Assembly: GCA_943736015.1 (NCBI GenBank)
Contig: OX031065.1
Coordinates: 1,247,501-1,311,500, forward strand
DNA length: 64,000 nucleotides
Direction: 5' to 3'
From: Tridacna crocea
Taxonomy: Eukaryota > Mollusca > Bivalvia > Cardiida > Cardiidae
The stretch's first letter is position 1. Each line of letters begins with the position of its first letter. Of this stretch, positions 3,421 to 63,752 are shown piece by piece. The notes under the pieces were generated by a model that was given only the letters and a program-made list of their open reading frames with translations, made no database searches and was not told the DNA's origin. Position numbers and translations under genes: made by a program.

Positions 3421-3667
3421 TTAACCTTTTACCAGACAACAAAATTCTAGCCTTGTCCAAATTGAAAGTAGTTGCAGATGACATTTCAGTTTGGATCAAA
3501 TGCTGCAATTGTTCTTTGATAGAGTAGAAAATTTTGTTGTACAATACTGGTTACCAGCATTTTCTCCTTTTCCCGCAGTTTTTTCATAAGTCTTCTTTCC
3601 TTGGTCGTCAAAACTCGTCACTGTGTGGTAAAGGGTTAAAACTCAGGATTATGTGGTAAAGGGTTAA
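3421..3667 (+). mobile_element. TTAA-1 MITE plus duplicated solo end
   Basis: The forward copy is 3421-3639. The terminal 32 bases are then repeated (3636-3667), giving a solo B end with its own TTAA that stops 16 bases inside the intron from the exon 6 donor. Confidence 0.85.
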
Positions 3668-4589: not shown

Positions 4590-4681
4590 TGAGGTAGATG
4601 TGAACGTTTTCAATATCAAATTTTCTCACACTGTTTGGAATAAATAGAAGCATCAGGACAGGAATGTTACCACCATATAAT

Positions 4682-4881
4682 ATCAGGTATTTACCCCACA
4701 CAAAATAGTAGGTATTTACCCAACACATGATATTAGGTATTTACTCCACACAAGATATTAGGAATTTACCCCACACAAAATATCAGGTATTTACCCCACA
4801 CATGATATTAGGTATTTACTCCACACAAGATATTAGGAATTTACCCCACACAAAATATCAGGTATTTACCCCACACAAAAC
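4682..4881 (+). repeat. 25-bp tandem repeat, eight units with 75-bp higher order
   Basis: There are eight head-to-tail 25-base units of type AT(T/C)AGGTATTTACCCCACACA followed by AAAAT, TGAT or AGAT. Variants recur every third unit (AAGAT, GGAATTT...AAAAT, then CATGAT), giving a 75-base higher-order period. The units continue without spacers, so this is not a CRISPR-like array. Confidence 0.92.
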
Positions 4882-11479: not shown

Positions 11480-11497
11480 CTGAAAAAAAAATTTAGT

Positions 11498-12749
11498 CAT
11501 TACCACATAATGCAGGGTTTTAACCCTTTCCCAAACAATCCCTGGTTTTTACGGGTCAGGAATAGAAGCCTTTTGAAAACATTGTGGGAAAAGGAGAAAA
11601 TGCCGGTAACCAGCATTTTCTCCTTTTCCCACAATGTTTTCTAACCTACCATGTCGAAAAATCATCTTATAAGTTATTAGCAACTGTTAATTTGTCATTT
11701 GCAAAATGCTTTCAATTTGGTCTGGTCCAAAATTTGCTGTTTGGGAAGGGTTAATAACTTATACCAGCCTCAATAAAAATCTAAAAATAAAAAAATATTT
11801 AAGTCTCTCTCAATTCTGCTTCCTGCACCAAGTACTAGCCGAACATGTGGGTGAATGAAAAATCTTAAAGTTGAAATCTGAGCTTTAACAATCCGTAGAA
11901 GATGATATCTGAAACCACTGTTAAAAATGAAAGAAATGTTAGTGACCAGCATTTTCTGTTTTTCCCAAAATGTTTTCAACATCTTCCGTTATCTTTTCAA
12001 AGACAATTTTCATTAAATAAGCCATATTCAACTTTTCATCTGCAAATGGTTTGAATTTGCACAAGTCTAGAATTTTTTTCATTTAGTAAAGAGCTAACCC
12101 TTTACCACACAATCCCTAGTTTTAACAACCCTGAAGAAGAGCGTTTCTGAAACATTGTTGGAAAAGAAGAGGAAGCTGGTAAGTGGTTCCCAGCATTTAC
12201 AAATTTTCCTACAATGTTTTTTATCCCATGAAAGCTAGAAGTCTACACATGCCTTCATTTCGAATAAATCCAAAACTTTGTCAGTCTGGTAAACAGTTAA
12301 CCCCTTACTATATAATCTGATTTTTAATGACCCTGAGAAAGAGAGCTTTCAGAAACCATGTTGGAAAAGCGGAAAATGCTGGTAACCAGAATTTTGTGCT
12401 TTCCCACAATGTTTTCTTATCTTTTACTAACAAATCCCATCACTTGTGCTATATTTACTATGTTCTCATAAAATGCTTCCAATTTGGATCTGTCTAAAAC
12501 TGTGTTAACCATATACTGAGTTAACCATATACTAAACAAACCCTGGTTTTTACGACCCAGAGGAAGAAGCCTTCTGAAAACATTGTGGAAAAAAGGAGAA
12601 AATGCTGGTAACCTGCTATTTTTCCTTTTCCCGTGGTGTTCTCTTCTCTTCTAAAGTCACGTTTCAACTTTTCAGTCACATTTATTTTGTGGTCTGCAAA
12701 TGCTTTCGATTTGGACAAGCCTAAAATATTGTCGTTAGGTAATGAGATA
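11498..12749. mobile_element. Run of TTAA-1 copies in DENND11 intron 1
   Basis: Members: solo end 11498-11521; reverse copy 11520-11754 (subfamily with CCTGGTTTTTACGGGTC); right half about 11920-12096; reverse copies 12094-12300 and 12297-12508 sharing a TTAA; and reverse copy 12521-12749. The target region ATATACTGAGTTAACC is locally duplicated at 12505-12530. Confidence 0.85.
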
Positions 12750-13759
12750 GAGCAACGTCGGGTATTGTCGACCGTCGGTAGTTATCGTCAATTCTTTATT
12801 GTGTCCTTTAATTCCATGAAAGATGAACAAATTCCTTTTTTATGATGTAAAATATGACGTCAATATTTTATCTAATCACAGTGCCGGAAGAAAACGGTAC
12901 TCTGTAAGTCCCAAGGAGTCAGTAAAATTTTATAGTAATAAAATTTCCTAACATTAACGTCTACAATAAGGAGGGTGGTGGTTTTTGTCAGCGTGAAGGG
13001 CGTACTGAAACGTGCTCGATTGCTTGAATTCAAACTTAAATACAAGTTTCAGATATATAATAGTGTTCTCATCACAAAATTGAGCGTGTTTTGCCCACCA
13101 TAAAGCAGCTCATTGATGTGTCGATGACTGCCGATGCAAATTTGTGTGATCGGCAATTATCGACAGATTAAGACATGAATAAAAGAAATTAGAATTAATA
13201 TGTCTTGTGTAATCACAATTCCTTTTTATCTTTCGGGTTACAGCTATGTTCAGCCAAATTTTGGCCTGAAAACTCCAAAACTAGGTCAATACTCATCAAA
13301 TAAAATGTCATAGGCCATAGAAATGGTGCGCAGTGGTGCAATGTCCAGACATATTAGTCCATGATATTACCAATGTGTGCCTGTTCGGCCTTCTTTTGCG
13401 ATTGTACTTCTGTTATGCGCCAAGTTTTACTTTAATTGCTTTATATAAGATCTAATTCGGCAACGAGTACTGAATAAAATCCATAATCATGAGTTTAAAG
13501 AGGATTTTGATGTTAAATTCTTGAAAATTAAATACAATGTCGATAATAGACGAAGCCTGTCGCTATCACCCGACATACCCTTATATAATGTTGGCGTTGT
13601 TTGCTACAATACGCAACTTTACACCATTATATTATACGCGTAGATCAGTAGAGTATCCGCAAAATAAACCACTGATAACTTCAGTTTGTATTTAAGGTGG
13701 CTGTTATCGACACCACACTTTCCCATCTCTTAAAGTGTCGATAATACCCGCCGTTGCTC
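12750..13759. mobile_element. 1,010-bp TIR element between twin MITEs
   Basis: The termini GAGCAACGTCGGGTATTG and its inverted partner (complement of AATACCCGCCGTTGCTC) match at 22 of about 25 positions. TA lies immediately outside each end, suggesting a TA target as in Tc1/mariner-like elements. The interior is AT-rich with no coding frame, so it is non-autonomous. It lies exactly between MITE copies 12521-12749 and 13760-13968. Confidence 0.7.
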
Positions 13760-13968
13760 TAGCCATATATCAAACAATCCCTGGATTTCATGACCCAGAG
13801 GAAGAAGCCTTCTGAAAACATTGTGGTAACCAGCATTTTCTCCTTTTCCCAGAGCGTTCTCTTCTCCTCTAAAATCACGTTTCAACTTTTCAGTCACATA
13901 TATTTTGTCGTCTGCAAATGCCTCCAATTTGGACATATCTAAAATTTTGTCTTTTGGTAGAGAGTTAA
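13760..13968 (-). mobile_element. TTAA-1 MITE 16 bases from the exon 1 donor
   Basis: Reverse copy most similar to 12521-12749: both share CTTCTGAAAACATTGTGG and TTCTCTTCTC.TCTAAA. Its TTAA (13965-13968) is at intron position +16. Confidence 0.85.
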
Positions 13969-13983
13969 TCCTTAAAATCAAAC

Positions 13984-14206
13984 CTGATCTGGTATCAAAC
14001 GCCACAACAAAGATGCAGACAATTAAGTCAGGCTCCACTCCAGATGGCGTGGTAACGGTTGCGTTTACAAATATCCGATCATCGGCACAGACTGCATTTG
14101 ATCTAACAGGTTCTGTTGGAAATAAATTCGGCTTTCGTCTGTTTCTTGTCACGGTGTTTTCATTATTTTCTGATGCGAGAAGAGGAGCTCTCTCCTCCTC
14201 CGCCAT
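13984..14206 (-). CDS. DENND11: DENND11 (LCHN) coding exon 1, start codon to phase-1 donor
   Basis: This exon encodes 74 codons plus one base. DENND11 is a DENN-domain protein of the family that acts as Rab exchange factors on membranes; that biochemical role is family knowledge, not visible here. The start at 14206 is chosen because it has A at -3 and G at +4. An in-frame ATG 36 bases upstream (14242) has a poor context. Residues 5-10 (ERAPLL) form an acidic dileucine-type sorting signal. Residues 11-58 are a low-complexity linker. From residue 59 (PDLIVCIFVVAFDTRSG) the chain matches the first beta strand of the DENN N-terminal module of vertebrate DENND11, which reads DQIVAVFVVTFDPRSG. The donor is AG/GTTTGA. 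A TTAA-1 copy ends at intron position +16. Orthology is very likely; the 5' UTR and transcription start are not visible. Confidence 0.93.
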
Positions 14207-14593
14207 CCTGTCACTTTTTTCGTGTATCGATTTTGACAACATCCGGTTTCCAAATCGGAGGTACAAAAAGTGTAATAATTAAAGGGAAACAACTCTAAAG
14301 CTATAGTATATTTTCCATTTGAGTTATCTTTCTTAGACCTTTGAAAACGAACAAGGACGGTGAACATTAGGTATAAAACGCAGCAGAAAATAAGTAATAA
14401 AAACCTACTTAACGTGAATTGAAAGTGTTATAGATCTACATTGTGTCAAAAGAAACTTCCACTCTGTTCGAGAATTTCCCTTTTTGCCGTGTTGCTTTGG
14501 TTTCCTTTATTTGTAAGAGGAGAAGATCTACTGCAAAAGTTCTATCTACAGATCGATGAAAAACTGTTTTATGAGGACTTTGTTTTTAATTTC
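14207..14593. promoter_or_regulatory. 5' flank and presumed 5' UTR of DENND11
   Basis: This is the sequence directly upstream of the DENND11 start on the minus strand. It is AT-rich and largely free of MITEs up to 14594, which is unusual here and fits a promoter or 5' UTR under constraint. I see no convincing TATA box, initiator or CpG cluster, so the transcription start cannot be placed. An in-frame ATG at 14242 could give a 12-residue N-terminal extension, but its context is weak. Confidence 0.35.
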
Positions 14594-15000
14594 TTAATCC
14601 TTTCTCACACATGTCTATTTTAGACCCTATATTTCAGAAACATCTGCAGACAACAGACTCAAAACTGTGCAAAAGAACTTGAGCCGTCTAATTGGGTAGA
14701 AAACATTGTGGGAAAAGGAGAAAATGCTGGTTACCTGGTTACCAGCATTTTCTCCCTTTCCCCACAATGTTTTCAAAAGTCTCCTTTTACCAGGGTCGTA
14801 AACGTAAGGAATTGTTTGGTAAAGGGTAAACAGACAACAATCAGACTCAAATCCTTTAACTGCATGTAATTCAAATTTGTTTTTTAAGGAATAGAAAATG
14901 GTTTGGGAAAAGGAGGAAATGCTAGATCTATATCTTATTACAAGCCTTTTTTTCCCTTTTCCCACGAAGTTCTACAAATCTTTCCTTCACTTTTCAAGCA
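14594..15000 (+). mobile_element. TTAA-1 MITE and a diverged second copy
   Basis: The forward copy 14594-14829 has a small insertion at the hairpin tip (GGTTACCTGGTTACC). It is followed by a strongly diverged forward copy, 14829-15000. Confidence 0.75.
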
Positions 15001-15032
15001 CCTCTAACAAATGTGATTGTATTTGCGGCTAG

Positions 15033-15192
15033 CGTAGATCAAGATCACACTGCACATTATGTGAAGTCTGATCTTTAATCTACACTTTCCGCTTTGCTAA
15101 ATTAGTCTTGACAAAAACGACAATGCATTTATTCGGGTTTCCTCTAGCGACTGAAGATTTCTGTTTGCTTTATTGGGGACCCTAAGGGTTAA
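15033..15192. mobile_element. TTAA-2 MITE, degenerate
   Basis: The core GTAGATCAAGATCACACTGC and its partner AGTCTGATCTTTAATCTACA is followed by CGACTGAAGA... and an end CTAAGGGTTAA. Confidence 0.7.
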
Positions 15193-15211
15193 GATCGTTT
15201 AAACCAGGGAG

Positions 15212-15428
15212 CGTATCCCATTACCACACAATCCCTACTTTTGACGCCCCTGAGAAAGAAACCTTTTGAAAACACTGTGGGAAAAGGAGAAAATGCTGGT
15301 TCTCCTTTTCCCACAGTGTTTTCAACCCTTTCCAGAACACATTTCAATTTTTTAGTCGCTTTTAGTTCGTCGTCTGCAAATGCTTTCAATTTGGACCAGT
15401 CTAAAAGTTTCTCGTGTGGTAAAGAGAT
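15212..15428 (-). mobile_element. TTAA-1 MITE lacking the hairpin tip
   Basis: Reverse copy. The left arm of the tip is deleted, so GAGAAAATGCTGGTTCTCC replaces the usual palindrome. The TTAA is lost at both ends. Confidence 0.8.
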
Positions 15429-15787
15429 ATACATATAAAAATATAAATACGAGCCATGCTAAAAATATACATGATACCAGAGAAGTCATCACAAAATTAT
15501 GGACCTGTTATATCCACTTTTGTTTTTTTAAAACAACTTGCCTAAAATGCGATAAACTGGTCCACAGACAAACACAGACAAACTTAAAATAGCGCAAAGT
15601 TATAACCCAGATCAGTCTGCGCGGCCGGCTCGGGCTGACCTGAGTGGATAACTTAATCATTTGCATTAATCCCCTTTTTCACAGAGCATGTCTCATATGC
15701 ATTGGTACATATGATCCCTCTCAAAACTTTTGACAATAAAGGAAAAGGTAAACAGAGAACTTTTGACTTGTGGTTTTGAAGAGTGCA

Positions 15788-16133
15788 CGTTGTCTGCGCA
15801 TGTCATATTCTTCGAAGATTCGACCGTCTTATATGACGCATCACTAGCCCCGAAAGCGGGCTGACTGTAATATTACGCTCTATAAAGTAGCAATGTAGAA
15901 AACAGCTTTTATCAATATGCTTGAGGAGAAATGAGACCTGCTTTAGCTCCACATTTCGCTAAACTGCTGATCATAGCTGAGTGAATTGCTATTTTATTGA
16001 GTAAACGTTTATTTTAGTTTGAAATTCAAAGTAACGGTTGCCGCGTAGGAAAGTGGTTCGGCTCTGTACCCAGGATGCCGAAATCAGATAGATGAGTATT
16101 TATAGAATGCCATCTAGCGGGAAGTAATGGAAG
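15788..16133. repeat. Dispersed ~350-bp repeat, copy 1
   Basis: It is about 85-90 percent identical by eye to 56031-56389, from GTTGTCTGCGCATGTC to ATGCCATCTAGCGGGA. It is flanked by AGTGCA and AGAGCA, a possible imperfect 6-base duplication. There are no obvious inverted termini and no frame. Confidence 0.7.
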
Positions 16134-16246
16134 AGAGCATATTCAAGTTCAATCGATGACGTCATTTACATTTGTTGTTGTTGTTGTAATTTTGCTTGTA
16201 TTTCCCAGGGCTATGTCAGTCTCTCGAATCCGAGTTCAATAAAGCT

Positions 16247-16481
16247 GAATCCTTTACCAAACGACAAAATTTAAACTGGTCCAAATTCAAAGGATTTGCA
16301 GTCGACAGGTTAAGTTAAACTCAAACACTTAAATTTGCCTTTTGTAGATTGGAAGAGAGCATTGTGGGAACAGGATAAAATGGTAGTTACCAGCATTTGG
16401 AACCCCTTTTTTTCGAAATGTTTTGAAAGACCTGTTTTTTATACATCGCGAAATTTCGGGATGTTGTGGTAAAGCATTTAA
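16247..16481 (+). mobile_element. TTAA-1 MITE, degenerate
   Basis: Forward copy with a damaged hairpin (GGATAAAATGGTAGTTACC). The ends are GAATCCTTTACC and GTGGTAAAGCATTTAA. Confidence 0.75.
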
Positions 16482-16792
16482 AGGGAAATAAATACCCGTA
16501 CATCTTGGCTGCCGGGGACGTATTTTAAATACGTAGATCAATACAGTCCCTTTTGATTGTAAATATAATCTGATTCTCAGGAGAAAAATGGACATGAAAA
16601 TGCGACTATACGTTTGCGGCGGTGTCGTGTATAATTGTTTTACATTTTTTTTTGTCCACGGTATGACACAAAATGCAAAATTCCCGCTTTATTAGTTTGA
16701 ATTTATCACGTGCTCGTTTTCAATTACTCGCGCACCTTGCAATGTTTACAGAGGGCGCTGTCGCGTCAGCGGTCGATTCAGTAGTTACGATC

Positions 16793-16889
16793 ATGGCGAA
16801 AGGCCATGACTGGGAATTACAAACCGCGAGTGTTATTTGGATATTTTTTGTGATTCTTGGAAAATCGTTTTGCAAAACATCTCAAACTT
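16793..16889 (+). CDS. Candidate first coding exon of a secreted or membrane protein
   Basis: An ATG with A at -3 and G at +4 opens 32 codons that look like a signal peptide. There is a short polar n-region (MAKGHDWELQ), a hydrophobic core TASVIWIFFVILG, then KSFCKTSQT. The frame then meets a consensus donor, CTT/GTAAGT, in phase 1. The 150 bases upstream are locally GC- and CpG-rich (TCGCGCACC, GCGCTGTCGCGTCAGCG), as expected near a promoter. It is divergent from DENND11, with 2.6 kb between the starts. I could not find a convincing second exon anywhere downstream, so the gene is unidentified. Confidence 0.5.
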
Positions 16890-17455
16890 GTAAGTAGATA
16901 TTTTTCGATTTTTCACTTTCTTGCGTTGACTCACCGACATTTGGATAAAACGCAGTAATTGATTCTAAATGACCGTAATATATATAGCGTTATATGATAG
17001 ATGACTATCAATTTAGCGACCGGGTGCTAAAACCACGTATTAGCTTCTAACATAAATATTAGTCAGTGGTCGGTTGTGATTAATCCGCTTACACTTTGCA
17101 TTTGCCGACTTTTGTCGTACATTTTATAGCTGAAACGGTTTTATATCATGTATGAATTACGTAGACCTTAAAAAAATTGTCGTCTGCATAGCTGTCATTA
17201 AGACCGACGTGTCATCGCTCTGCACACGAATTCTTTATCAAAGTTGCGCTGTCACAATCGAATTATCAGTTATTTACGAGCAGAAGGCCTCTAAATTACG
17301 ATACCTCATGGTGTCTTAATGCAAGAAAAATCAATTGTATGTTCCCTCAAGAAATATTCAGTTCCTATTAAAGTCCTAACTAGACCTTGATCCACTTGTT
17401 ATAGTCGTGAAATGTGTTGGTTTTGTTTTCATTTGTTCCAATCACAGCAAATGCT
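16890..17455. other. Unique sequence downstream of the signal-peptide exon
   Basis: No MITE, SINE or other repeat is recognised. If the exon at 16793 is real, this is the start of its first intron. Confidence 0.4.
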
Positions 17456-18345
17456 TTAACTCTCTACCAAATGACATAATTTTAGACTTGTCCAAATTGA
17501 AAGCATTTGCAGACAACAAAATAAAGGTGACTGAAAAATTGAAATTTGTTCTGGGAAGGGTAGAAAATACTGTGGGAAAAGGAGAAAATGCTGGTTACCA
17601 GCATTTTCTCCTTTTCCCACAATGTTTTCCTAAGGCTTCTTTCTCAGGAGTGTCAAAAGTAGGGATTGTGTGGTAACGGGTTAAATCTTTACCAAATGAC
17701 ATATTTTAGACTTGTTCAAATTCGAAGCATTTGCAGACAACAAAATTAATCTGCCTCTAAAATTGAAATTTGTCTTGGACAGGGAAGAAAACATTGTGGG
17801 AAAAGGAGAAAATGCTGGTTATCAGCATTTCTCCTTTTCCCACAATGTTTTCAATAGGTTTCTTTCTCAGGGTTGTTAAAAGTCGGGATTGTGTGGTAAA
17901 GTCTAAAAGAGTTAACGCTTTACCACATGGCAGAATTTTAGATCTGTCCAAATTAAAAGCATTCGCAGACACTAGTACAGTGTATGTCCAAATATGAAAA
18001 AGATCACCGGGGCGTCTCATTATTGAGACTATCGCAGACACCAGTTTCAAAGTGGCTCAAATGATGGAATTTTTCTTTGATCGGGTAGAAAACTTTGTGG
18101 GAAAAGGAGAAAATGCTGGTTATCATCATTTTCTCCTTTTCCCAGTATGTTTAAAACAGGTTTCTCTCTTACGGTCGTTTTGGTGTCATTGTGTGGTAAA
18201 GGATTAACCCTCAGGTTGCTAAGCTTGACTCACTGGCCTTTTGCAGACAGTGTAGATCAAGATCAGACTGCACAGAATGTGCAGTCTGATCTTGGATCTA
18301 CACTGTTTGTGAAGAGGTATCATTCCCTAAAATATAACTTCAAGT
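17456..18345 (+). mobile_element. Chain of three TTAA-1 copies and one TTAA-2 copy
   Basis: 17456-17684, 17681-17915 and 17912-18207 are forward TTAA-1 copies, each sharing one TTAA with the next. The TTAA at 18204-18207 is shared in turn with a TTAA-2 copy (18204 to about 18345) whose core is at 18249-18300. The third TTAA-1 copy carries about 70 extra bases in its A arm. Confidence 0.88.
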
Positions 18346-18501
18346 TCAAGTTCAAGTTTAGAGTCCTTTTCGCTGAATAGATCATGAATTTTAATTGCCT
18401 GCACTGGGAATGTTGTTTGGCAAGGCATATGCAGAGCCCCAGCCTAACAGTGACTCATGAAGCTCCTGAATCAAATACTATGATTGAGGTGATGCGGTGA
18501 T

Positions 18502-19296
18502 TTAACTCTTTACCACACGAGAAAATTTTAGACTGGTCCAAGTTGGAAGCATTTGCAGACAACAAAATAAAGGTGACCGAAAAATTAAAATTTAATGGGG
18601 GAAGGGTAGAAAACACTGTGGGAAAAGGTTACCAGCATTTTCGCCATTTCCCTCAGTGTTTTCAAAATGCTTCTCTCTCAGGATTGTGTGGTAATGGGTT
18701 AAATCCTTTTTTAGGTAATAAAATTATTTCGTCTGTCAGATTGACGGCATGATGCAGACTACAAACTGATGTGGCTGTAACAATGTGAACTGTCTTGGGA
18801 AGGGTAGAAAATGTTGCATGAGAAGGAGAAAAGCATTAATTTTACTCCTTTTCCCTTATAAGTTTCAAAAGCCTTCTCTCTCAGGCTTGTTCAAAGATGC
18901 AGTCATGTGACAACCCTTTACCACACAATGAAGACTATTGATGACCTTGAGATATAAGCCTTTTGAAAATATTGTGGGAAAAAGGAGAAAATGCTAGTGA
19001 CCTACCAGGCAGCATTTTCTCTTTTCCCCTCAATGGTTTCAAAAGGCTTCTTTCTTAATTCTTTATCACACAATCCTGACTTTAACGACCCTGAGATAGA
19101 AGCCTTTTGAAAACTTAGGAAAAGGAGAAAATGCTTGTTACCAGCATTGTCTCCTTTTCCCACAATGTTTTCTACCCTGCTGGAAACCATTTCAGTTTAT
19201 GAGTTAGTGCTTTTTTTTGTCGTCTGCAGATGCTTTCAATTTGAACAAGTCTAAGAAAAGTCTAAAAATAGTTGGCATTGTGTAGTAAAGGGTTAA
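18502..19296. mobile_element. Chain of TTAA-1 copies and recombinants
   Basis: 18502-18702 is forward with a shortened hairpin. 18699-18912 is forward and diverged. 18911-19058 joins a reverse left half to a forward right half. 19055-19296 is reverse with its A end fused to a B-end tail (TTGGCATTGTGTAGTAAAGG). Confidence 0.8.
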
Positions 19297-19566
19297 TATC
19301 TTACATTTTTTGCAAATGATAAATAACAAGGTTGTAACAGATTTTTCATGTAAATAACTTGCTCTTAATTCAATTAAGTTCCTCTCAGGTTAATTGCTTT
19401 CAGATGGCTGATTTACCCTTGCTTGTCATCAGCTATCAGCAGGTTTACATTTCTGTGGTGTGCATCGGAATACTGGAACACTTTCTCTTATGCATAGATA
19501 TATACTTTTTTTTGTACTTCTCCACCGCCTGTTTACTGGTATTTTGTAAAAAAAAAAAAATTCTTT

Positions 19567-20433
19567 CAACTCTTTACCAAATGATAAAATTTTACACTGA
19601 TCCAAATTGAAAACATCTGCAGAAAACAATTTCAAAGTAGCACAAATGGGGCATTTTTGCTTTGATAGAGTAGAAAACTTTGTGGGAAAAGGAGGAAATG
19701 GTGGTTACCAGTATTTTCTCCTTTTCCCACAATGTTTTCAAAAGGCTTCTTCCTCAGGGGCATAAGAAGTTGTTAATGTGTTGTAAAAGGTTAACTCTTT
19801 CCATACAATCCTGCCTTTTAACGGCCCTGAGAAAGATTAGGATTTGGAAACCATTATGGGAAAAGGAGAAAATGCTGGTAACTAGCATTTTCTCCTTTTC
19901 CCACAATGTTTTCTACCTATTCAGAAGCAGGTATCATTATTTGAAAACATGTCAGTTTTCCTTTGAGAATTTCCTCAGAATAGACATGTATGAAATTTTG
20001 CTGTGTGGTAAAGGGTTAACCCTTTACTCTTTTACCAAACGAGAAAATTTTAGAGTGGTTCAAAGTAAAAGCACTTGCAGATAACAAAATAAACATTCCT
20101 CAAAAATTGAAATTTGTTCCCAGCTGGGTAGAAAAAATGTTTTCAATGTTTTCAAAAGTTTTCAAAATGTTTTTATCTCGGGGTCGTAAAAACCAGGGAT
20201 TGTTTGGTAATGGGTTAAGACTCGTCCAAATTAAAAAACATCTGCAGACAACAATTTCAATATGGCTCAAATGATGAGATTTTTGTCTTTGAAAGGATAT
20301 CATAGAAAACATTGTGGGAAAAGGAAAAAAATGCTGGTTACCAGCATTTTCTCCTACATGTATTCCCACCATGTTTTTGAAAAGCTTCTTTATCAGGGCC
20401 GTCAAAAGTCGGAATTATGTGGTAAAAGGTTAA
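19567..20433. mobile_element. Chain of four TTAA-1 copies sharing TTAA sites
   Basis: 19567-19794 (forward), 19791-20019 (reverse), 20016-20218 (forward, hairpin tip lost) and 20215-20433 (forward, left end trimmed). Each junction holds a single TTAA. Confidence 0.9.
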
Positions 20434-20504
20434 AATAAGATACACAAGCAAATTTAGCAGCAAATAGGCAAGGGCCCTCAAAGTCTACACATTTGACCAA
20501 TTAT

Positions 20505-20797
20505 GAACTCCTTACCAAACAACAAAATTTTTGGCTTGTCCAAATTGAAAGCATTTGCAGACATCAAAATACAAGTGACCAAAAATTTGAAATTTGTTTT
20601 GTGAAGGGTAGAAAACAATTGTGGGAAAAGGAGAAAATGCTGGTAACCAGCATTTTCTCCTTTTCCCACAATGTTTTCTGTGGGTTCTGTCTCCGGGTCG
20701 TCAAAAGTAGGGATAATTTGTGGTAATGGGTTAATTTGTATCTGCAAAAGTTTTGAGTTTAGAGCAGTCTAAAATTTTGTCATTGGTAAAGAGTTAA
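20505..20797 (+). mobile_element. TTAA-1 MITE plus solo A end
   Basis: The forward copy is 20505-20734. An inverted A end (about 20740-20797, ending GTAAAGAGTTAA) follows. Confidence 0.82.
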
Positions 20798-21051
20798 TTA
20801 CATACTTGGTTATAATACATGTATAAGGTAACATTGAGACAGTACATGTTAATTAAATATAATACATATCTAAATGTTTTTTGCTGGCATTATAACAAAG
20901 ATATAATCCAGCTCATTTATAAATACCCAAGGTTTGCCAGAGACAACACAGATTTATGATTAAATCCAGCATCATCCAATCAGTTACTGACCTTTGTAAC
21001 CTTCTTCCTGATGAACAACATTCCCACGAAAAGGGGTGTACTTTTGGTCCA

Positions 21052-21211
21052 TATTCACCAACGATTCTCAAGAACATTCGTAGTCTTATTCTTCAGAATT
21101 TCATCATTGTGAAAGAAACAGAACATCTGATTGGCTAAACCGATGTTCATGCCAGTCAGAAAATCTTGAAAAATAAGACTAAGAACGTTCCTGAGAATGG
21201 TTGGTGAATAC
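21052..21211. mobile_element. HP-4 palindromic MITE
   Basis: The termini ATTCACCAACGATTCTCAAG and its inverted form (GAATGGTTGGTGAATAC) enclose arms with ACATCTGATTGGCTAAAC. Length is about 160 bases. Confidence 0.82.
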
Positions 21212-21214
21212 GGT

Positions 21215-21435
21215 TCCTGCTTGGATCAGCAGTAAAGTGTAGGATTTATGACACGGAGTCCCTGGGTTCGAGCCCGCTGGATTCACTAGGTTTTTTGAGG
21301 GAGTGTCTGTGGACAGCACACTTCAGAGTCCTAGCCTGGTTCTCATGAGACCCAGGAAATACATGAATATGTGTGCTGTTGCCATGATATGGCTGAAAAA
21401 TTGTTGAAAGTGGCTTAAACTCCATGCATTTAATC
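21215..21435 (+). mobile_element. tRNA-derived SINE, second type
   Basis: The head has a B-box-like GGGTTCGAGCCC (21265-21276). The 3' part reads TGCTGTTGCCATGATATGGC then TTGTTGAAAGTGG. A related element is at 51085-51385. Confidence 0.75.
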
Positions 21436-21469
21436 ATCTAAAAGATGTTTGTAGATCACTAGGTCTGTT

Positions 21470-21853
21470 TTAACTCTTTACCAAACAACAAAATTGTAGA
21501 CTGGTCTGAATTGAAAGCATTTGCAGACGACAAATTAAATGTGACTTAAAAACTGAAATTTGGTTTGGGAAGGGTAGAAAACATTATGGGAAAAGGAAAA
21601 AGTGCTACCAGCATTTTCTCCATTTCCCACAATGTTTACAAAAGGCTTCTATCTCAGGGTCATAAAAACTTTTGACGACCCCGAGAAAAAAGCCTGTCGA
21701 AAACATTGTGGGAAAAGGAGAAAATGCTGGTAACCACAATGTTTTCTACCCTGCGCAAAACAAATTTCAAATTTTCAGTCACTTTTATTTTGTCGGCTGC
21801 AATTGCTTTCGATTTGGACAAATCTAAAATTTTGTTGTTTGGTAATGAGTTAA
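21470..21853. mobile_element. Inverted dimer of TTAA-1
   Basis: A forward copy (21470-21668) and a reverse copy (21669-21853) are joined B end to B end at TCATAAAAACTTTTGACGAC with no TTAA between them. Only the outer A ends keep TTAA. Confidence 0.82.
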
Positions 21854-21922
21854 AATACTAATAGATCTAACTTATTTCCTAGATTATTTCATGAAAAGCT
21901 TTGTCTTGGTGGAATATTTGGG

Positions 21923-22635
21923 CAGGGTTTTCCATGACGCGCAAATCCTGCGTCATTGACGCAATTTTAATTCAAATGACCCCCAAAATAAATGACAGTG
22001 CGTCATTGGTGACGCAACTTTCCAAAATCTAAATAATGTACTAAGTTGAATGAAGCGTCATAATTCCAAATCTGTTCTTGCTTCAATGTCAGACAAACAC
22101 CGTTCTTTTTTTAACTACAGGGTTTATTTCAGATAAAATTGGTTTTCCGGTAATTTATTTATAGAATAAGACTGGTTTACGCATTATTTACGTGTCGTAA
22201 ATATGGGCCCAGTCAAAGTCGTGGTTGGGTTCTCTGTATTTCATTGCATATTTTTCACGACTTCCGGTACATAAAAGTACACATTACCGGTCTGTGCAGT
22301 TAGCGGAAAAATAATGTCATGACGAAGAAAACTGTAGCATTCTTCTATCGTCTGCTTCTTACAACTGCCGATCTGGCAAGTCACGTCAAGCAGCGATTCA
22401 GACGAAAATGTTTGGTCTGTCAAAAAGTGACATCGACCTTTCCGTCAGAAATGATCGACCAAATTTTAAATCTTGGAAGTTGGCGTTTTAAAGGTAAAAT
22501 GCATTATAAATCGTGTTTGAAGTTGATGACGAGGAAATCCATATTTTTGACCCCCAAAATTAATGAAATGACCCGCAACTAATGAGGAAGGGGGTCACAA
22601 TGACCCCCAATTTTCAAAGCCGTGGGAAAACCCTG
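21923..22635 (+). mobile_element. 0.7-kb DNA transposon, copy 1, 6-bp target duplication
   Basis: The termini CAGGGTTTTCC and GGAAAACCCTG bracket 713 bases. TTTGGG is duplicated immediately outside (21917-21922 and 22636-22641). CAGGG ends recall hAT elements, but those duplicate 8 bases. Both copies in this window duplicate 6. Subterminal repeats of GTCATT and GACCCCCAAAATTAATGA lie near both ends. An internal frame at 22319-22582 (87 codons) may be a remnant of a transposase exon. Confidence 0.88.
22319..22582 (+). pseudogene. Possible transposase exon remnant in the 0.7-kb element
   Basis: The frame starts MTKKTVAFFYRLL and has two Cys pairs (CLVCQK and, later, KSCLKL). In copy 2 the equivalent region is shifted and stopped. 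Read across the shift, copy 2 gives a conceptual FQSWKLAFKGKMHCKLCLK-like segment, reminiscent of the zinc-binding N-terminal region of hAT-related and ZNF862-like proteins. That resemblance is only an impression. Confidence 0.3.
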
Positions 22636-22785
22636 TTTGGGCCACAATTTGTTTGGGTAAGTGCAAGGGTCTGCAGGGCTAGTGATGTTTTGGATAATTT
22701 TTTTATTCTTGGAAATTTCAGGGATCACCTTTCCGGCTTTCCCCCAACTGTGGGATCATGTCATAACTGTTTTTTTTTCCATCTT

Positions 22786-22976
22786 AATTCTTTAGTGAGT
22801 TTTAATGACCTTGAGAAAGATGCCTTTTGAAAACATTCTGAGAAAAAGAGAAAAAGCAGGTGATATTTCGAATGTTACAGGTGCTGAAAATTTAGTGATA
22901 GTAAAATTGTCTCAAGTTTTTCAAAAGGCTTTTTCCACAGGGCCGTTAAAACTCAAGATTGTGAGGTAAAGAGTTT
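22786..22976. mobile_element. TTAA-1 recombinant with two B ends
   Basis: The left half is a reverse B end (TTTTAATGACCTTGAGAAAG) and the right half a forward B end (GGCCGTTAAAACTCAAGATTG). The hairpin is lost. Confidence 0.65.
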
Positions 22977-23103
22977 ACTCTTTCTGTACTGTTAACAACA
23001 CCAGAAGTTTTTGTGGACACTGTCCACTACACTTTGTTTTAGATAAAGTCCAAACTTTCTCTTTATCTTGCAGTGCAACTACGGTATATTCATAGCCAAT
23101 TAA
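22974..23103. mobile_element. TTAA-2 MITE, diverged
   Basis: It carries CACCAGAAGTTTTTGTGGACAC and ends at a TTAA (23100-23103) shared with the next TTAA-1 copy. The palindromic core is mostly lost. Confidence 0.5.
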
Positions 23104-23339
23104 CCCTTTACCTGATATGCCAATTTGAGGCTCTTCCATTTCAGCATCAAATAAAGATAGGATGTCAAAAATATGGACAAATGGCGATACAAATATCCAA
23201 CTGAGTGGAAAACATTGTGGGAAAAGGAAAAAATGCTTGTTACAAGCATTTTCTCCTTTTTCCAAAATGTTTTCAAAGGCTGTCTGTTGTTGATACATTA
23301 AAATGAGTATCTATGAAGTAAAGGGTTAAAGAATATAAA
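23100..23339 (+). mobile_element. TTAA-1 MITE, third subfamily
   Basis: Bounded by TTAA. Its right end reads GAGTATCTATGAAGTAAAGGG and its left end TACCTGATATGCC. The same subfamily appears at 28320-28541 and 62128-62334. Confidence 0.82.
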
Positions 23340-23609
23340 TCATCTACTTGTTAGTGAAAGAGTCATAAGCCTCTCGGCATATTGAGCCTATTTTTGTCTT
23401 TGATCCGATGCCTTTCAATTTTTAAGCTGGTATTTTTGTCTTTGATCTGATGCAATGACTGCATCCAGATCACATGGCTTCAAAGTTCAAACACATAAAA
23501 GGATAATACCTTTGTTTGTTGAGACTGGTAACTTGATCTATTGTTTGTACAAACCACATAACCCTTTACCTATCGGTATAAGTTAAACCAGATAAATTGG
23601 CCATCCATC

Positions 23610-23905
23610 TGTTTGATTGTATGGTGTTCAGTGCTTTTTTCAAGATTGTTTCAGTTATATTGCGGGGCAAGTGCACCTGTCTATGCTCTAATTTATCAAT
23701 GCTTTCTTTTACCAGTACAAAACAATATTCTTTCCAAGCTACTGGCTGCTTTCCCATATAAACATTGTCAAAATAATGGCCAGTGGTGAATAGAGGGATG
23801 ATTGCAATGACTATCAGCAGTCCAGGGATAGAAATTAGCAGAGCCAAGGATTGAACCAGTGCAATTCATCTGGATCAATCTATTGAACTTACATCACCTT
23901 ATGCA
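23610..23905 (-). mobile_element. tRNA-derived SINE, minus strand
   Basis: It carries the complement of the same 3' domain as 9898-10213 (CAAGATTGTTTCAGTTATAT), the GCCAGTGGTGAATAGAGG body and a degraded tRNA head. The 5' end runs into a 35-base tandem repeat. Confidence 0.75.
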
Positions 23906-24008
23906 ACCTAACCACTGCCACCATGGTAGCAGATAAACCGACCTAACCACTGCCACCATGGTAGCATATAAACCGACCTAACCACTGCCACCATGGTAGC
24001 AGATAAAC
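23906..24008. repeat. 35-bp tandem repeat, three units
   Basis: ACCTAACCACTGCCACCATG followed by GTAGCAGATAAACCG is repeated three times with one or two changes. It appears to be an expansion of the SINE head. Confidence 0.9.
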
Positions 24009-24022
24009 TGCTGGCAACATTA

Positions 24023-24248
24023 TTAACTCATTACCAAATGACAATATTTTTGGCTTGTCCAAATCGAAAGCATTTGCAGACAACGTAAGAGTGACTGAAA
24101 ATTTGAAATCTGTTTTGTGAAGAGCAGAAAACATTGTGGGAAAAGGAGAAAATGCTGGTTACAAGCATTTTCTCTTTTTCCCACAATGTTTTCTCAAGGC
24201 TTCTTTTTCAGGGTCGTCAAAAGTAGGGATGGTGTGGTAATGGGTTAA
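24023..24248 (+). mobile_element. TTAA-1 MITE
   Basis: Full forward copy with TTAA at both ends. Confidence 0.88.
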
Positions 24249-24349
24249 ACAACTGTATTCACAACTTGTGGCCAGTGTCTGTATGCCTTCAATCAGGCCA
24301 ATATTGGTATTAAACAAAATTAATATGCCAATTATTGCCTTTGAACTGT

Positions 24350-24783
24350 ATTACGTTGGAAAGGACATTTTTGAAAACATTGTTGGAAAGGAAGAAAATG
24401 CTGGTATCCAGGATTTCTTCCTTTTCCCACAATCTTTTCTGCCCCCATCATGGAGCTTATGCTCATTTATACCGATATTTCATTTTGTTGTGTACAGATG
24501 ATTTGAATTAACCCTTTACCACACAATCCCGACTTTTAATGACCCTGAGAAAGAAGCCTTTTGAAAACATTGTGGGAAAAGGAGAAAATGCTGGTTACCA
24601 GAAAGAAGCCTTTTGAAAACATTGTGGGAAAAGGAGAAAATGCTGGTAACCAGCATTTTCTCCTTTTCCCACAATGTTTTCTATCCTTCCTAATACAATT
24701 TTTTTTCTTTCTTATTTATTTTTTCGTCTGCAAATGCTTTCAATTGGGGCCAGTCTATAATTTTGTCATTCAGTAAAGAGTTG
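24350..24783 (-). mobile_element. Two reverse TTAA-1 copies, one with a 52-bp internal duplication
   Basis: 24350-24511 is a partial reverse copy. It shares TTAA 24508-24511 with a reverse copy reaching 24783, in which the left arm from AGAAAGAAGCC to GGTTACC is repeated in tandem (24548 and 24600). Confidence 0.82.
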
Positions 24784-24936
24784 AAAAGAGTCTGATTTTT
24801 GTTGTTTGGAAAAAGGATTGAGGTTGTGTCATCCATAAGCTGATTAGCTAGACAAACTTGATGGATCTGTTTGATGGCAAAAATTGATACAGATCAATCC
24901 TTCACTTGATCACCCTTCGGAAAAAGTCTGCAGAAT

Positions 24937-25245
24937 CTTTTTAGCTCTGTGGGTAGTGTACAAGACTTGAAAATTGGAGGTCGCAGCTTGCTGGTTTGAT
25001 AATACAGTTGTATTCTAGCTCGTCGAATTTCTGTCCGAGGATCGATGATAGTCATTGCAAAAGGATTCATTCCTCTCTCACAGCTGATCATTGTTTGGAT
25101 GATGGTTATTTGGGAAAGCAGCCAGTGGCTTAGAAGAATATTGTATGGAGGAGTACTAGTAAAAGAAACTCCGGGAAAACATGGATAGTCACACCAGTTG
25201 CAGTGATAAATGAAATAATTTTGAAAACAGGATTAAAACAAAACA
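24937..25245 (+). mobile_element. tRNA-derived SINE
   Basis: Diverged copy of the 9898-10213 type: AGCTCTGTGGGTAGTGTAC head, GAGGATCGATGATAGTCATT body, and the 3' domain at about 25195-25240. Confidence 0.75.
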
Positions 25246-39100: not shown

Positions 39101-40799
39101 TTTTTAGCTCACCTGAGCACAACATGCTCAAGGGGAGCTTTTAGGATCACCCAGTGTCCATCGTGCGTCAGTGCGTCGTGCATGTTCAACAATTCTTCAA
39201 CCCACATTTTGGACTCTTCCAAACCGAAAGAGTTTGCAGACAACAATTTTAGATTTGGATAAAATGGCAAAAAGTTCTTAAGAAGGGTAAAAAACACTGT
39301 GGGAAAAGGAGAAATTGCTCGGTATGAGCAATTTCTCCTTTTCCCGTGGTGTTTTCAAAAGACTTACTGCAGACACGTAAAAACCAGGGCTTGTTTGGGA
39401 AAGGGTTAAATATCAACACCTCCTAAACTGCTGGGCCAATTTGGACCAAACTTGGCAGGAACGTTCCTTGGGAGGTCCTCTTTCAAAATTGTCCACAGAA
39501 TTTAATTCCATCTAAAACTCTGGTTGCCATGGCAACCAAATGGAATTTTCTAGGAAATTCTTTAAAAATCTTCTCCTCTGAAACCGTTGGTCAGATTTTA
39601 AAACAATTTCACAGAGATGTTCCTTTGGTGACCCTTTTCAAAAATCATTCGTGACATTTTGATCCGTCAAGAAACGTAGCTCTGGTGAATGGGGGCTACT
39701 TGCACTATACAGAAATGAAGGAATTCTTTAAAATTGTTCTTCTCTGAAACCGCTGGTTAGATTTTAAAATGATATCACAGAGATGTTCCTTGAGTTACCC
39801 TTTTCAAAAATTGCTCATGATTTTGATCCGTCAAGAATCATGGCTCTGGTGAATACCAGGGGCTTCTTGCTCTATACGGAAATGAAGAAATTCTTAAAAA
39901 TTCTTCTTCTCTGAAACCGCTGGTCAGATTTTGAAATAATTTCACAGAGATGTTCCTTGGGTGACCCTTTTCAAAACTTCTTCGCGAAATTTTGATCCGT
40001 CAAGAATCATGGCTACTTGCTCTATACAAAAATGAAGAAATTCTTTAAAATTCTTTTTCTCTGAAACTGCTGGTCAGAATTTGAAATAATTTCACAAAGA
40101 TGTTCCTTGGCTAACCCTTTTCAAACTTTTTCATGAAATTTTAATCTGTCAAGAACCATGGCTCTGGTGAATGGGGGCTATTTGCACTATACAGAAATGA
40201 AGAAATTCCTAAAAATTATTCTTCTCTGAAACTGCAGGTCAGATTTTGAAATAAATTCACAGCAATGTTCCTTTGGTGACCCTTTTCAAAACTTGTTCGC
40301 GAATTTTTTTTTCCATGAATAAACAGGCTCTGGTGAATGGGGGCTACTTGCACTATATTGCCATGAAGAAATTCTTAAAAATTCTTCTTCTCTGAAACGG
40401 CAGATCAGATTTTGAAATAATTTTATAGAAATGTTCCTATGGTAACTCTGTTCAAGAACTGTTTGCAAAATGCTGATTTGTCAAGAAACATGACTCTAGT
40501 GAATGGGGGCTACTTACACTATTTGGCCATAAAGAAATTCTTTAAAATTCTTTTTCTCTGAAACAGCTGATCAGATTTTGAAATAATTTCACAGAAATGT
40601 TTCTAAGCTGACCTTTTTCAAAAACTGCCCGAGAAATTAGTTTCCATTAGGAAACATGGCTCTGATGGCTGTGGGTTTTTTACACAATGAAGACATGAAG
40701 AAATCTTTAAAAATTACTGGTAGATTTTGAAAAAAATGGCTATGGTCCTCTCAAAAATCCAGGTGAGCGATCCAGGGCCATCTTGGCCTGCTTGTTTTT
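39101..40799 (+). mobile_element. Long AGCTCACC element with internal ~165-bp tandem repeats
   Basis: It begins TTTTTAGCTCACCTGAGCAC and ends CCAGGTGAGCGATCCAGGGC followed by CTGCTTG. From about 39540 a unit of about 165 bases (GAAGAAATTCTTTAAAATTC ... CTCTGGTGAATGGGGGCTAC) repeats seven to eight times. A TTAA-1 copy interrupts it near the start. No frame is maintained, so any protein origin is gone. Confidence 0.78.
39190..39409 (+). mobile_element. TTAA-1 MITE, GAGCAATT subfamily
   Basis: Inserted in the AGCTCACC element. It has a TTGCTCGGTATGAGCAA tip and a B end with CAGACACGTAAAAACCAGG. The left TTAA is decayed. Confidence 0.82.
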
Positions 40800-51385: not shown

Positions 51386-51627
51386 CAAATGCTTTCAATT
51401 TGGATAAGTCTAACATTTTGTTGTTTTTTGCCACTTACATCAAAATCCTACAGAAGAATACTGGTGAAAACACCGAGGTAAAAGGAAAAAAAACAAGGTG
51501 GTAACCAGGATTTTTTCTTTCACTCAAAATGATTTGTATCCGATGTCAGATTACCATTATAATTTTAGACATATCTAATTTATGGTCTACAAAGCTTAAG
51601 AATTTGGACAAGTCTGAAAATTTGTCA

Positions 51628-52285
51628 TCACACAATCCTAATCCTACCTTTACCACACAATCCTGACTTTAAACCTCTACCACACAATCCTGACTTTAAC
51701 CCTTTACCACACAATCCTGATCCTACCTTTACCACACAATCCTGACTTTAAACCTCTACCACACAATCCTGACTTTAACCCTTTACCACACAATCCTGAT
51801 CCTACCTTTACCACACAATCCTGACTATAAACCTCTACGACACAATCCTGACTTTAACCCTTTACCACACAATCCTGATACTACCTTTACCACACAATCC
51901 TGACTTTAAACCTCTACCACACAATCCTGACTTTAACCCTTTACCACACAATCCTGTCCACTGCTACATTCAAAGTTAGGCCTAAACAGTCTCTTAACCA
52001 CCCAATCCTGATCCTACCTTTACCATACAATCCTGACCTTAACCCTTTACCACACAATCCAGACTTTAACCCTTTACCACACAATCCTGATCCTGATCCT
52101 ACCTTTACCACACAATCCTGACTTTAACCCTTTACCACACAATCCTGACTTTAACCCTTTGCCATACAATCCTTATCCTACCTTTACCACACAATCCTGA
52201 TCCTATCTTTACCACACAATCCTGACTTTAATCCTTTACCACACAATCCTGATCCTACCTTTACCACACAATCCTGACTTTAAAC
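51628..52285 (+). repeat. Satellite built from the TTAA-1 B terminus
   Basis: About 25 tandem units of TTTACCACACAATCCTGA plus CTTTAACCC, CTTTAAACCTC or TCCTACC. At 51643-51960 four larger units of exactly 79 bases are ordered A-B-C. Further right the order is irregular. The unit is the MITE terminus including its terminal TTAACCC. Confidence 0.92.
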
Positions 52286-53511
52286 CAGCTTTTCTCCTAT
52301 TTCCACAGTGTTTTCAACCCTGATAAAGGAAAAATTTCATCATCTGAGCCAGTCCTTCAAATTTTCCTGTACAGAATATTTTCAATGAGGACTGGTTTAA
52401 AATTTAAAAAGTAGTTAACCCTTAAACACACAATGCTGACTTTTGGCACTCCTGGAAAAGAAGCCTTTTGAAAATATTGTGAGAAAAGAAGAAAATGCTG
52501 GTAATGTAGCAGCATTTTCTTATTTTCCTTGAATGTTTTCTACCATATCGAAGAAAATTTGCACGATTTGAGCCACACCCTACACACAAAACCAGTTTCA
52601 AATTTTTGGTCACTTTTATTTGTGGTCTGCAAATGTGTTCAGTTTGGAGTAGTCTAAAACTTCTTTTTTTTTTGTAAAGAGTCAATTACTGAAAGATGGG
52701 CAGGTTTTTTGACAGGGTGAGCTATTATAAAATAAATGTGACTGAAGAATTGAAAAGCACTTTCTCCTTTTTCCCACAATGTTTTCAAAAGCCTTCTTTC
52801 TCAGGGTTGGGATCGTGTGGTAAAGAGTGAGGCCCTTTATACATAATCCCGACTTTTAGCGACCCAGAAAGAAAAAAGCCATTTGAAAATATTGCGGGAA
52901 AAAGAGAAAATGCTGGTAACCAGCATTTTCTCCTTTTCCCACATTGTTTTTATTATTCCATTAAAAAAAAAGTTCCATCAGTTGAATAGCATTTAAATTT
53001 TTGTCTTCAAATGCTTTCCATTTCGTTAATTTTAAATGTCGTTTTTTTTTTTAAAAAGAGTTAACCTTTTACGAGTACATGTGCTAGCCTTTTCCGAATT
53101 GCAGAAGACAATTTTGTAGTGGCTTAAATGATCGAGTCTTTCTTTGATAGGGTAGAAAATATTGTGGGAAAAGGAGACAATGCTGGATAACAGCATTTTC
53201 TCCTTTTCCCACAATGTTGTCAGAAGACGTCTTTTCCCAGTATCGTTAAAAGTCGGCATTGTGAGGTAGAGGATTAACCCTTTACCAAACAAAAAAATTT
53301 TAGCATGGTCCAAATCGAAAGCAATTGCAGACGACAAAATAACCACAACTAAAAAATTGAAATTTGTTACCAGCAGGGTAGAAAACATTGAGGGAAAAAG
53401 GAGAAAATGCTGGTTACCAGCATTTTCTCCTTTTCCCACAATGTTTTCAAAAGGCTTCTTTCTCAGGGTCGTTCAAAGACAGCATTGTAAGGTACCAAGG
53501 TAGAGGATTAA
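52286..53511. mobile_element. Run of TTAA-1 copies
   Basis: 52286-52418 is a right half. 52415-52685 is reverse (shared TTAA). 52725-52828 is a forward right half. 52829-53064 is reverse. 53061-53277 and 53274-53511 are forward, with single TTAAs shared between neighbours. Confidence 0.82.
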
Positions 53512-53755: not shown

Positions 53756-55584
53756 TTTTTAGCTCACCTGAGCACAACGTGCTCAGGGGGAGCTATTGTG
53801 ACCGGTCATCGTCCGGCGTCCGTCCGTCCGTCCGTCTGTCCGTCCGTCTGTCCGTCCGTCCATCTGTCCGTCCGTCTGTTAACAATTTCTTTAAAAATCT
53901 TCTCCTCCAAAACCAGAAGGCCAATCTTGATAAAACTTGGCAGGAATGTTCCTTGGGTGAAGCTCTACAAAAATTGTTAAAAGAATTTAATTCCAACAAA
54001 AACTCTGGTTGCCATGGCAACAAAATGGCTGAAAATGGAAAAAATCTTTAAAAATCTTCTTGTGACAAACCATAAGGCCGGGAGCATTCATATTTTGTAT
54101 GAAGCATCATTGGGTGACCCTTTACCAAAATTGTTAAAATTATTCCCCTGGGGTCATATTTGGGCTTTGCCCGGGCGCACCCTATTTTACATTGAAACAA
54201 AGAAGGAAAGCTTTAAAAAATCTTCTTCTGACAAACAATAATGGCTAGAGCATTCATATTTGGTATGTAGCATTATCTGATGATCCTCTACCAAAATTGT
54301 TAAAATTATTCTTCTGCTGTCATATTTGGGCTCTGCCCGGGCGCACCCCATTTTAAAATCTTTAAAAATCTTCTTGTGACAAAACATAAGGTTGGGAGCA
54401 TTCATATTTTGTTTGAAACATCATTGGGTGACCCCTTACCAAAATTGTTAAAATCATTCCCGTGGGGTCATATTTGGGCTTTGCCCGGGCGCACTCTATT
54501 TTACATAGAAATTTAGAAGGAAATCTTTAAAACTTCTTCTGGTGACAAATCATAATGGCTAGAACATTCCTATTTCGTGTGTAGCATTAACTGATGATCT
54601 TCTACCAAAATTGTTGAAATTATCCTTCTGCGGTCATATTTGGGCTCTGCCCGGGCGCACCCTATTTTACAATCTTTAAAAATCTTCTTGTGACAAACCA
54701 TAAGGCGGAGGGCATTCATATTTTGTTTGAAGCATTATTGGGTGACCCCTTACCAAAATTGTTAAAATTATTTCCCTTGGGTCATATTTGGGCTTTGCCC
54801 GGGCACACCCTATTTTACATAGAAACAAAGAAGGAAACCTTTAATAAATCTTTTTCTGACAAACCGTAATGGCTAGAGCATTCATATTTGCTATGTAGCA
54901 AAATCTGATAATCTTCTACCACAATTGCTAGAATTATCCCTCTGCGGTCATATTTGGGCTCTGCCCGGGCGCACCCTATTTTACATAGAAACAAAGAAGG
55001 AAATCTTTTAAAAATCTACTTGTGACAAACCATAAAGGCTAGAGCATTCATATTTTGCATGTAGCATCATCTAGTGACCCTTTATGAAAATAATTAAAAT
55101 TATCCCCTTGGGGTCATATTTTGGCTCTGTGCCTTGGTGCACACTATTTCACATAGAATCATAGAAGGAAATCTTTTAAAATCAATTCCATCTAAAAAGG
55201 AGAAATTGTTTGTAACAAGCAATTTCTCCTTTCTCACAATCTTTTCTACCATATAGATTACTTATTTTTCATTTTAGATACATTTTAAAATGTCGTCTGC
55301 AATTTGTTTCAATTTGGAACGGTCTAAAATTTTGTCATCTGGTAATGTCTAAACTACAAGTCAAAAAGGGAAAAAGACACTGTGAAGAGAAAAATTGATG
55401 ATAAGCAGCAGCCTTTAGCTCTACTGGCCAAAGACAAAGAAGAAAATCTGTAAACATATTTTTGTGACAAACCCTAGGGTATGCCTTATTGGAAAAGAAT
55501 TAATAGCCTGCCCTTGATAAGCCATAAGAATTACAAATATACTCAGGTGAGCGATATAGGACCATCATGGTCCTCTTGTTTTTT
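53756..55584 (+). mobile_element. Long AGCTCACC element with ~160-bp internal repeats
   Basis: It begins TTTTTAGCTCACCTGAGCAC and ends CTCAGGTGAGCGATATAGGA followed by GGTCCTCTTG. A (GTCC/GTCT)n tract lies at 53815-53878. About eight repeats of TTCTTGTGACAAACCATAAG...GGGCTTTGCCCGGGCGCACC follow at 54050-55170. A GAGCAATT-type MITE half (55190-55353) is inserted near the end. Confidence 0.8.
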
Positions 55585-63110: not shown

Positions 63111-63752
63111 ATGTTGACAACAAAACTTTAGAGTCTCATCTGAATTGAAAGCAATTGAAGACGACAAATAAACTGCTTCTGTAATGATGGGATTTTAACT
63201 GAAAAGGTAGTAAACATTGTTGGACAAGGCGAAAATGCTGGTGACCAGCATTTCCTCCTTTCCCATCAATGTTTTTAAAGGCCATCTACCTTGGGATGGT
63301 TAACTCTTTCCAAACGATGTAATTTTAAACTTGTTCAAAGTGGAAGCATTTGCAGACAACAAAGTTAATTTGACTCATAAATTGAAATCTGTTTTTGGAA
63401 GGGAAAAAAACATTGTGATAAAAGAGAAAATGCTGGTTACCAGCATTTTCTCATTTTCCCACAATGTTTTCAGAAGGCTTCTTACCCAGGGTCATGAAAA
63501 CCAGGGATTGTTTTGGAAAGGGTTAAAACTCGAAATTGTGTGGCAAAGGGTGAAGTCTAAATTACCATACAATCCTGAGTTTTAAGGACCCAAGAAAAGG
63601 TTTTTTGAAAATATTGCGAGAAAAGGAGAAAGTGCTTAGGTAACCAAGATTTACCATACAAATATAAATATTGTGGGAAAAGGAGAAAATACTGGTTTTA
63701 TAGGCTTCTTTCTCGGGGTCATTAAAAGTAGGGATTGTGTGGTAAAGAGTTA
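63111..63752. mobile_element. TTAA-1 copies and fragments
   Basis: 63111-63303 is forward and diverged. 63300-63526 is forward and shares a TTAA. 63527-63752 is a jumble of B ends around a broken hairpin. Confidence 0.75.

Follow-up and report, generated by a model that had tools for sequence, protein, structure and literature searches.

How the terminus of a transposable element turns into a tandem repeat is the question raised by an array at 51629-52286 (+) of a 64,000-nucleotide stretch of the Tridacna crocea genome (contig OX031065.1), here called the window. The initial annotation had described it as a satellite array of about 25 units born from the end of a MITE. Tandem Repeats Finder confirmed a tandem array at this position, reporting overlapping rows with a period of 27 (24.1 copies, score 641) and a period of 79 (8.2 copies, score 796). 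Segmentation gave 24 unit starts: 23 units measure 25, 27 or 31 bp, mostly 25 or 27 bp, and one is an interrupted 54-bp unit (51943-51996, +) whose non-array sequence cuts the array in two. Identity between units was 0.908 at lags of three and six and 0.900 at a lag of nine, as opposed to 0.805-0.817 at other lags. This peak at every third unit indicates that a 79-bp higher-order repeat (27+27+25) is real. Four such copies had been called exact and placed at 51643-51960; the higher-order repeat stands, but the copies span 51643-51958 (+), and while copy 2 is identical to copy 1, copies 3 and 4 agree with it at 77 and 76 of 79 positions.

Inside the array, BLAST matches to the B-end of the MITE extend over consensus positions 1-33 and are 86-100% identical, which supports the proposed origin of the array from this end. 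The units themselves correspond to B-end bases 1-29 of a 229-bp hairpin element. Its consensus was derived from an alignment of 66 B-end regions of the window; the two ends are unlike but both contain TTAACYCTTTACCAMAC, the B terminus is TTAACCCTTTACCACACAATCCNGACTT, and a central hairpin has a 32-bp stem (fold z=-9.4). TTAA occurs in the consensus at positions 1, 29 and 226 only, so that the sole internal site lies at position 29, 28 bp from the B terminus, with none near the A-end. The termini read TTAA-CCCTTTACCA and TTAA-CTCTTTACCA, and in random sequence (200 kb) and the window together, 93 of 139 complete elements showed the exact target-site duplication TTAA on both sides. At matches with E up to 0.01 the family occupies 38% of the window and 22.4% (bootstrap 15.5-29.3%) of random sequence, the latter being 20 stretches of 10 kb (L029-L048) from the 1.05-Gb genome, the first 20 of 60 drawn from 14 of its 31 contigs. 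Five shuffles of the consensus gave 0 matches at the same E-value. The random 200 kb held 93 complete copies, which by extrapolation corresponds to about 0.49 million complete copies genome-wide (0.31-0.68 million). There was no Pfam match in the 10 window open frames searched (of 17 listed), no Rfam match in the window at gathering scores, and no match to viral contigs in a search with a 24-base core. Being short, non-coding, bounded by terminal inverted repeats and a target-site duplication and present in high copy number, the element is a MITE.

The TTAA target and the CCC-type terminus are both present, as at piggyBac ends, but Kolobok elements also use TTAA, so these two features do not decide the superfamily. 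The piggyBac-type transposase domain PF13843 gave 118 matches on many contigs; many of these lack an internal stop, and several score equally. None of the 14 control genomes had a match. A genome with many candidate transposase genes of this type, identified by their domain, would fit a TTAA-inserting MITE. A PF13843 element bounded by TTAACYCTTTACCA, if present, would name the transposase source.

The window contains further repeats and open frames. A 25-bp array at 4679-4880, with a unit ending in TTTACCCCACACAA, was considered as a second B-end array and rejected, as 57 of 500 shuffled units aligned equally well; it is a 25-bp minisatellite with the TTTACCCCACACAA motif. Two arrays of ~166-bp units, with alternatives of 148, 314 and 332 bp, lie at 39554-40715 and 54042-55183. 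An open frame of 182 codons at 13730-14278 (-) had no Pfam match and contains MAEEERAPLLASE, reminiscent of the start of PIP4P (TMEM55) proteins.

Because a TTAA follows the terminus at position 29, TTAA flanks the first 27-28 bp of the MITE at either border. A new copy inserting at this internal TTAA in the same orientation would leave a 27/28-bp end standing in tandem with the B-end that it brings, an arrangement encountered at many loci, and the expected order is then a 27/28-bp end, a complete copy, TTAA and the rest of the outer element. We scored this remainder over 30 bases, with the 99% point of random positions as threshold. A 100-base score proved too strict for loci with a decayed 3' part, several clear cases falling below many random positions, and was replaced. 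Loci L010-L067 and the window gave 442 views when every complete element was taken on either strand. A solo B-end lay upstream in 35 of them, and in 23 of these the outer remainder directly followed the distal TTAA, compared with 5 of the 407 flanks without a solo end. In most nested copies TTAA was present at both junctions. Self-nesting at the internal TTAA therefore generates tandem B-end dimers. A double insertion of transposable elements at a shared target site, as put forward by McGurk and Barbash in 2018, reportedly seeds satellites; the dimers seen here likewise form through a target site in an existing copy, the site being internal and not the terminal duplication.

The loci contributing to this count were not all chosen alike. 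L010-L028 and L049-L067 were picked for similarity to the window array, and the 27-bp spacing at these loci is biased by that choice. The first listing comprised 26 B-end runs, with L008 and L010 being one locus, and the first batch of picked loci showed a remainder in 7 of 12 cases versus 1 of 25. In the second batch of 19 loci, six (L049, L055, L058, L061, L066 and L067) had no B-end dimer; five of these entered the 442-view count because the inner copy is reversed, and L067 was left out. Among copies not picked by array similarity, those of the random 200 kb and the window, the remainder was found in 4 of 5 cases versus 3 of 134 (Fisher p=1.2e-5). The weakest of these four is L039, whose first TTAA reads TGAA and whose solo end has a score of 6, the cut being 4.

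Two nested elements lie in the window. A complete MITE at 3421-3639 (-) sits inside the internal TTAA of another, with the lone 28-bp end at 3640-3667 and the outer remainder (consensus 29-88) at 3365-3424; the second, at 63300-63526 (-), has its lone end at 63527-63554 and an outer remainder (consensus 29-214) at 63117-63303. A complete MITE at 11520-11754 (+) also follows a lone 28-bp end (11492-11519), and no outer remainder was found downstream of it. It is one of the 12 of 35 solo-end cases without a scored remainder. Four of these (L028, L049, L052 and L064) start like a remainder, with ATGACCC or ACAACCC, but are diverged or deleted and score too low to be counted. A remainder-like start is missing from the other eight, namely L011, L013, L019 (first inner copy), L021, L025, L042, L058 and the window copy at 11520. 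At L014 two stacked lone ends precede an inverted inner copy, which is followed by two remainders starting from positions 29 and 28. In a hand count of rounded identities at 22 loci, taking the first remainder for L014, the inner copy resembled the consensus more closely than the outer remainder did at 15, less closely at five and equally at two. Of the 139 complete copies that the window and the random stretches contain between them, 4 to 7 are nested at the internal TTAA, which would amount to roughly 14,000-25,000 nested copies genome-wide.

The initial annotation had suggested looking for longer arrays elsewhere, and had allowed that this one might prove unique to the assembly. Other arrays of the same B-end are in fact present in the same assembly. 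A whole-genome search with the window array (C10:1299129-1299786) returned an array on contig C5 together with many short matches; when part of the C5 array served as query in turn, arrays on C4 and C18 and a match on C1 came up as well. The C5 array (C5:9075094-9076008) has 34 units, mostly of 27 bp. In the C4 array (C4:64916948-64917328) the unit measures 28 bp, occurs in 14.8 copies and carries a variant of its own, CCTGAGG. At C18:3822482-3822857 there are at least 16 units, all but one step being 26 bp, and the stretch read may stop before the far end of the array. The C1 sequence (C1:54422644-54422792, 149 bp) is known as a search match alone. None longer was found among the best 40 candidates scored in either search; the array counts are lower bounds because scoring covered these best 40, and the searches may have passed over longer arrays whose units have diverged. 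With units within ~10-60 bp and arrays of hundreds of bases, the arrays read are minisatellites. The four measure ~0.4-0.9 kb and the largest has 34 units in ~0.9 kb, well below the long arrays of many thousands of units that define a satellite, which makes the original label an overstatement.

No exact unit type is common to the C10 and C5 arrays. Since unit lengths and variants differ, the four arrays read and the C1 match most likely arose separately from different B-end copies, as far as their sequences can tell; descent from one array-bearing copy that transposed and then diverged is a possible alternative. The last unit of both the C5 and the C18 array continues into the MITE's own interior. 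The C4 array is joined to a reversed A-end via a stretch that shares an array variant, a junction that could also be the product of recombination. After the C5 array a second remainder-like stretch starts at the next TTAA. Of 3212 TTAA sites, 72 scored as well, a number that will include some true internal sites, and nested seeding of the C5 array is moderately supported.

The window array is embedded in MITE sequence on both sides. On the left, a diverged MITE (51454-51626, +; consensus 44-212) has its A-end cut off at the array start. On the right lies the right half of the array-bearing MITE (52283-52405, +; consensus 89-208), its left hairpin arm missing between the last unit and 52283. 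The next MITE copy (52415-52685, +), with an internal insertion of ~35 bp, starts at the TTAA after the array-bearing element. No outer remainder was found after the window array, and nested seeding is for this reason not demonstrated there. Both of the largest arrays (C10, at 52283, and C5, in its right flank, L009) are located in copies with the left hairpin arm missing or replaced.

The window array is probably a minisatellite that grew in place out of the B terminus of a hairpin MITE with TTAA as its insertion target, was seeded by nesting or slippage, and then expanded. The founder event is not visible, and the seed may have been either a nested insertion or slippage. In addition to nesting, the TTAA-bounded segment could duplicate by slippage, as homogeneous multimers suggest, and a dimer or trimer might then expand via slippage or unequal exchange to give an array with its own higher-order repeat.

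The closest competitor is slippage alone, in which two TTAA sites 28 bp apart duplicate the intervening segment and nesting, however common, is irrelevant to long arrays. We place its chances somewhat below even, an estimate that overlaps with that for growth from a nested or slipped seed, where either seed is allowed, and the two estimates are not additive. The proposal of slippage was already part of the initial annotation, and slippage-like duplications were indeed seen elsewhere: L010 carries three near-identical units and L025 two, the units at L026 share private variants, and at L021 a 29-bp duplication occurred without TTAA. Slippage alone is also consistent with the C18 and C5 arrays, which run directly into their own element's interior, and with the window array, after which the outer remainder was not found. 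It does not account as readily for the second remainder-like stretch after the C5 array, nor for the 79-bp repeat of the window array, which mixes the unit heads TTAAACCTCT and TTAACCCTTT as if there had been two source copies. Furthermore, complete copies with an upstream solo end are mostly nested (23/35). L013 and L019 contain tandem copies of a lone end, with or without an inner element, and these point to local unequal exchange. At both loci the lone end is duplicated in tandem together with flanking or inner MITE sequence, and L013 could be an L019-like state after the loss of one inner copy.

The initial annotation had raised, as one possibility, elements stacked at TTAA with subsequent loss of the interiors, here taken as whole elements stacked at their shared terminal TTAA. 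The role of TTAA and the stacking of elements hold: around the 139 complete elements, 18 neighbouring parts end at position 229 and 16 begin at position 1, in a tally that counts each pair of complete elements from both sides. However, interiors would have to have been lost repeatedly at one and the same 27-28-bp breakpoint, whereas nesting yields this breakpoint without any deletion and the missing remainders lie on the other side of the inner copy in most cases (23/35 solo-end cases vs 5/407 flanks). Interior loss is therefore unnecessary, and we regard this origin as improbable. Capture of a pre-existing minisatellite by the MITE, as proposed for miDNA4 in Xenopus, has a precedent in the internal tandem repeats of some MITE families (noted in part of PMC12628747) but is very improbable here, the unit being the element's own terminus, which is single in ordinary complete copies (a solo end lies upstream of 5 of the 139), and the arrays read differing in unit sequence and length. 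An assembly artefact is just as hard to credit: tandem arrays are difficult to assemble and the evidence is assembly sequence, but arrays are found on several contigs and each has variants of its own; those on C10, C5, C4 and C18 have identifiable MITE flanks.

Growth in situ from the B terminus leads to a broader and more tentative proposal, that the TTAA 28 bp inside one end acts as a standing generator of satellite seeds. Transposition of the MITE would go on supplying terminal dimers, from which several loci would have grown arrays independently, with the opposite end, which has no such site, seeding none. We consider this possible, with the balance somewhat against it. A target site 28 bp from one end and none near the other amounts to a built-in control, which makes the seeding hypothesis testable. 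Allowing up to four mismatches, local counts gave seven runs of the B-end (five dimers spaced 27/28 and both halves of the window array) and three of the A-end, with spacings of 30, 36 and 38. At up to five mismatches there were eight B-end and nine A-end runs, one A-end spacing being 28. The A-end core is low in complexity. The local run counts weakly favour the B-end over the A-end.

Reviews cover the double-insertion route via shared target sites as well as MITE-derived satellites, among them Xstir and miDNA4, as far as the portions of PMC12628747 and PMC9659126 available to us go. In the former, the work of McGurk and Barbash (2018) is described as taking a double insertion of a transposable element at a shared target site for the satellite seed. 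The likeness lies in target-site-specific re-insertion that gives expandable tandem copies; in that description, however, the element linked through its target-site duplication forms the unit, whereas here the unit is the 27/28-bp terminus because the target lies inside the MITE, 28 bp from one end. The Xmix MITE and Xstir of Xenopus (Hikosaka and Kawahara 2004) also represent tandem repeats from a MITE, the source region being the TIR according to the portion of PMC9659126 consulted and internal sequences according to that of PMC12628747. For this system stem-loop excision between neighbouring elements was proposed, and a built-in target site is not part of the description in those portions of the two reviews. 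In miDNA4 of Xenopus tropicalis (Scalvenzi and Pollet 2014), the copy number inside a MITE changes through microhomology, as it may do here, but the relevant section of PMC12628747 has it as a captured tandem repeat inside a Tc1/mariner MITE and not as the terminus of a TTAA element. In Tetris/TIR-220 of Drosophila virilis, too, satellite units come from the terminal region of a foldback element; unlike the present MITE, this element has, in the part of PMC4079207 covering it, internal repeats of ~220 bp in long TIRs, target-site duplications of 8-10 bp and arrays of kb size. In rice, 11% of MITEs are in multimers (Jiang and Wessler 2001, in an extract of PMC10664404), which resembles the present case in that MITEs often insert into or beside MITEs; a tandem terminal array, as found here, is not mentioned in that extract. 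Within the titles and abstract openings of the literature searched, we found no description of a MITE end whose internal target site seeds a satellite.

The B-end array adds a case, on the scale of a minisatellite, to the satellites born from transposons, and its new feature is a target site inside the element near one end. Little has been observed of the step by which a satellite first passes from single copy to tandem repeat. Here one 27-28-bp segment provides a graded series within one genome, extending from single ends through nested dimers with visible founders, a double stack and homogeneous triplets to arrays of ~15, at least 16, 24 and 34 units.
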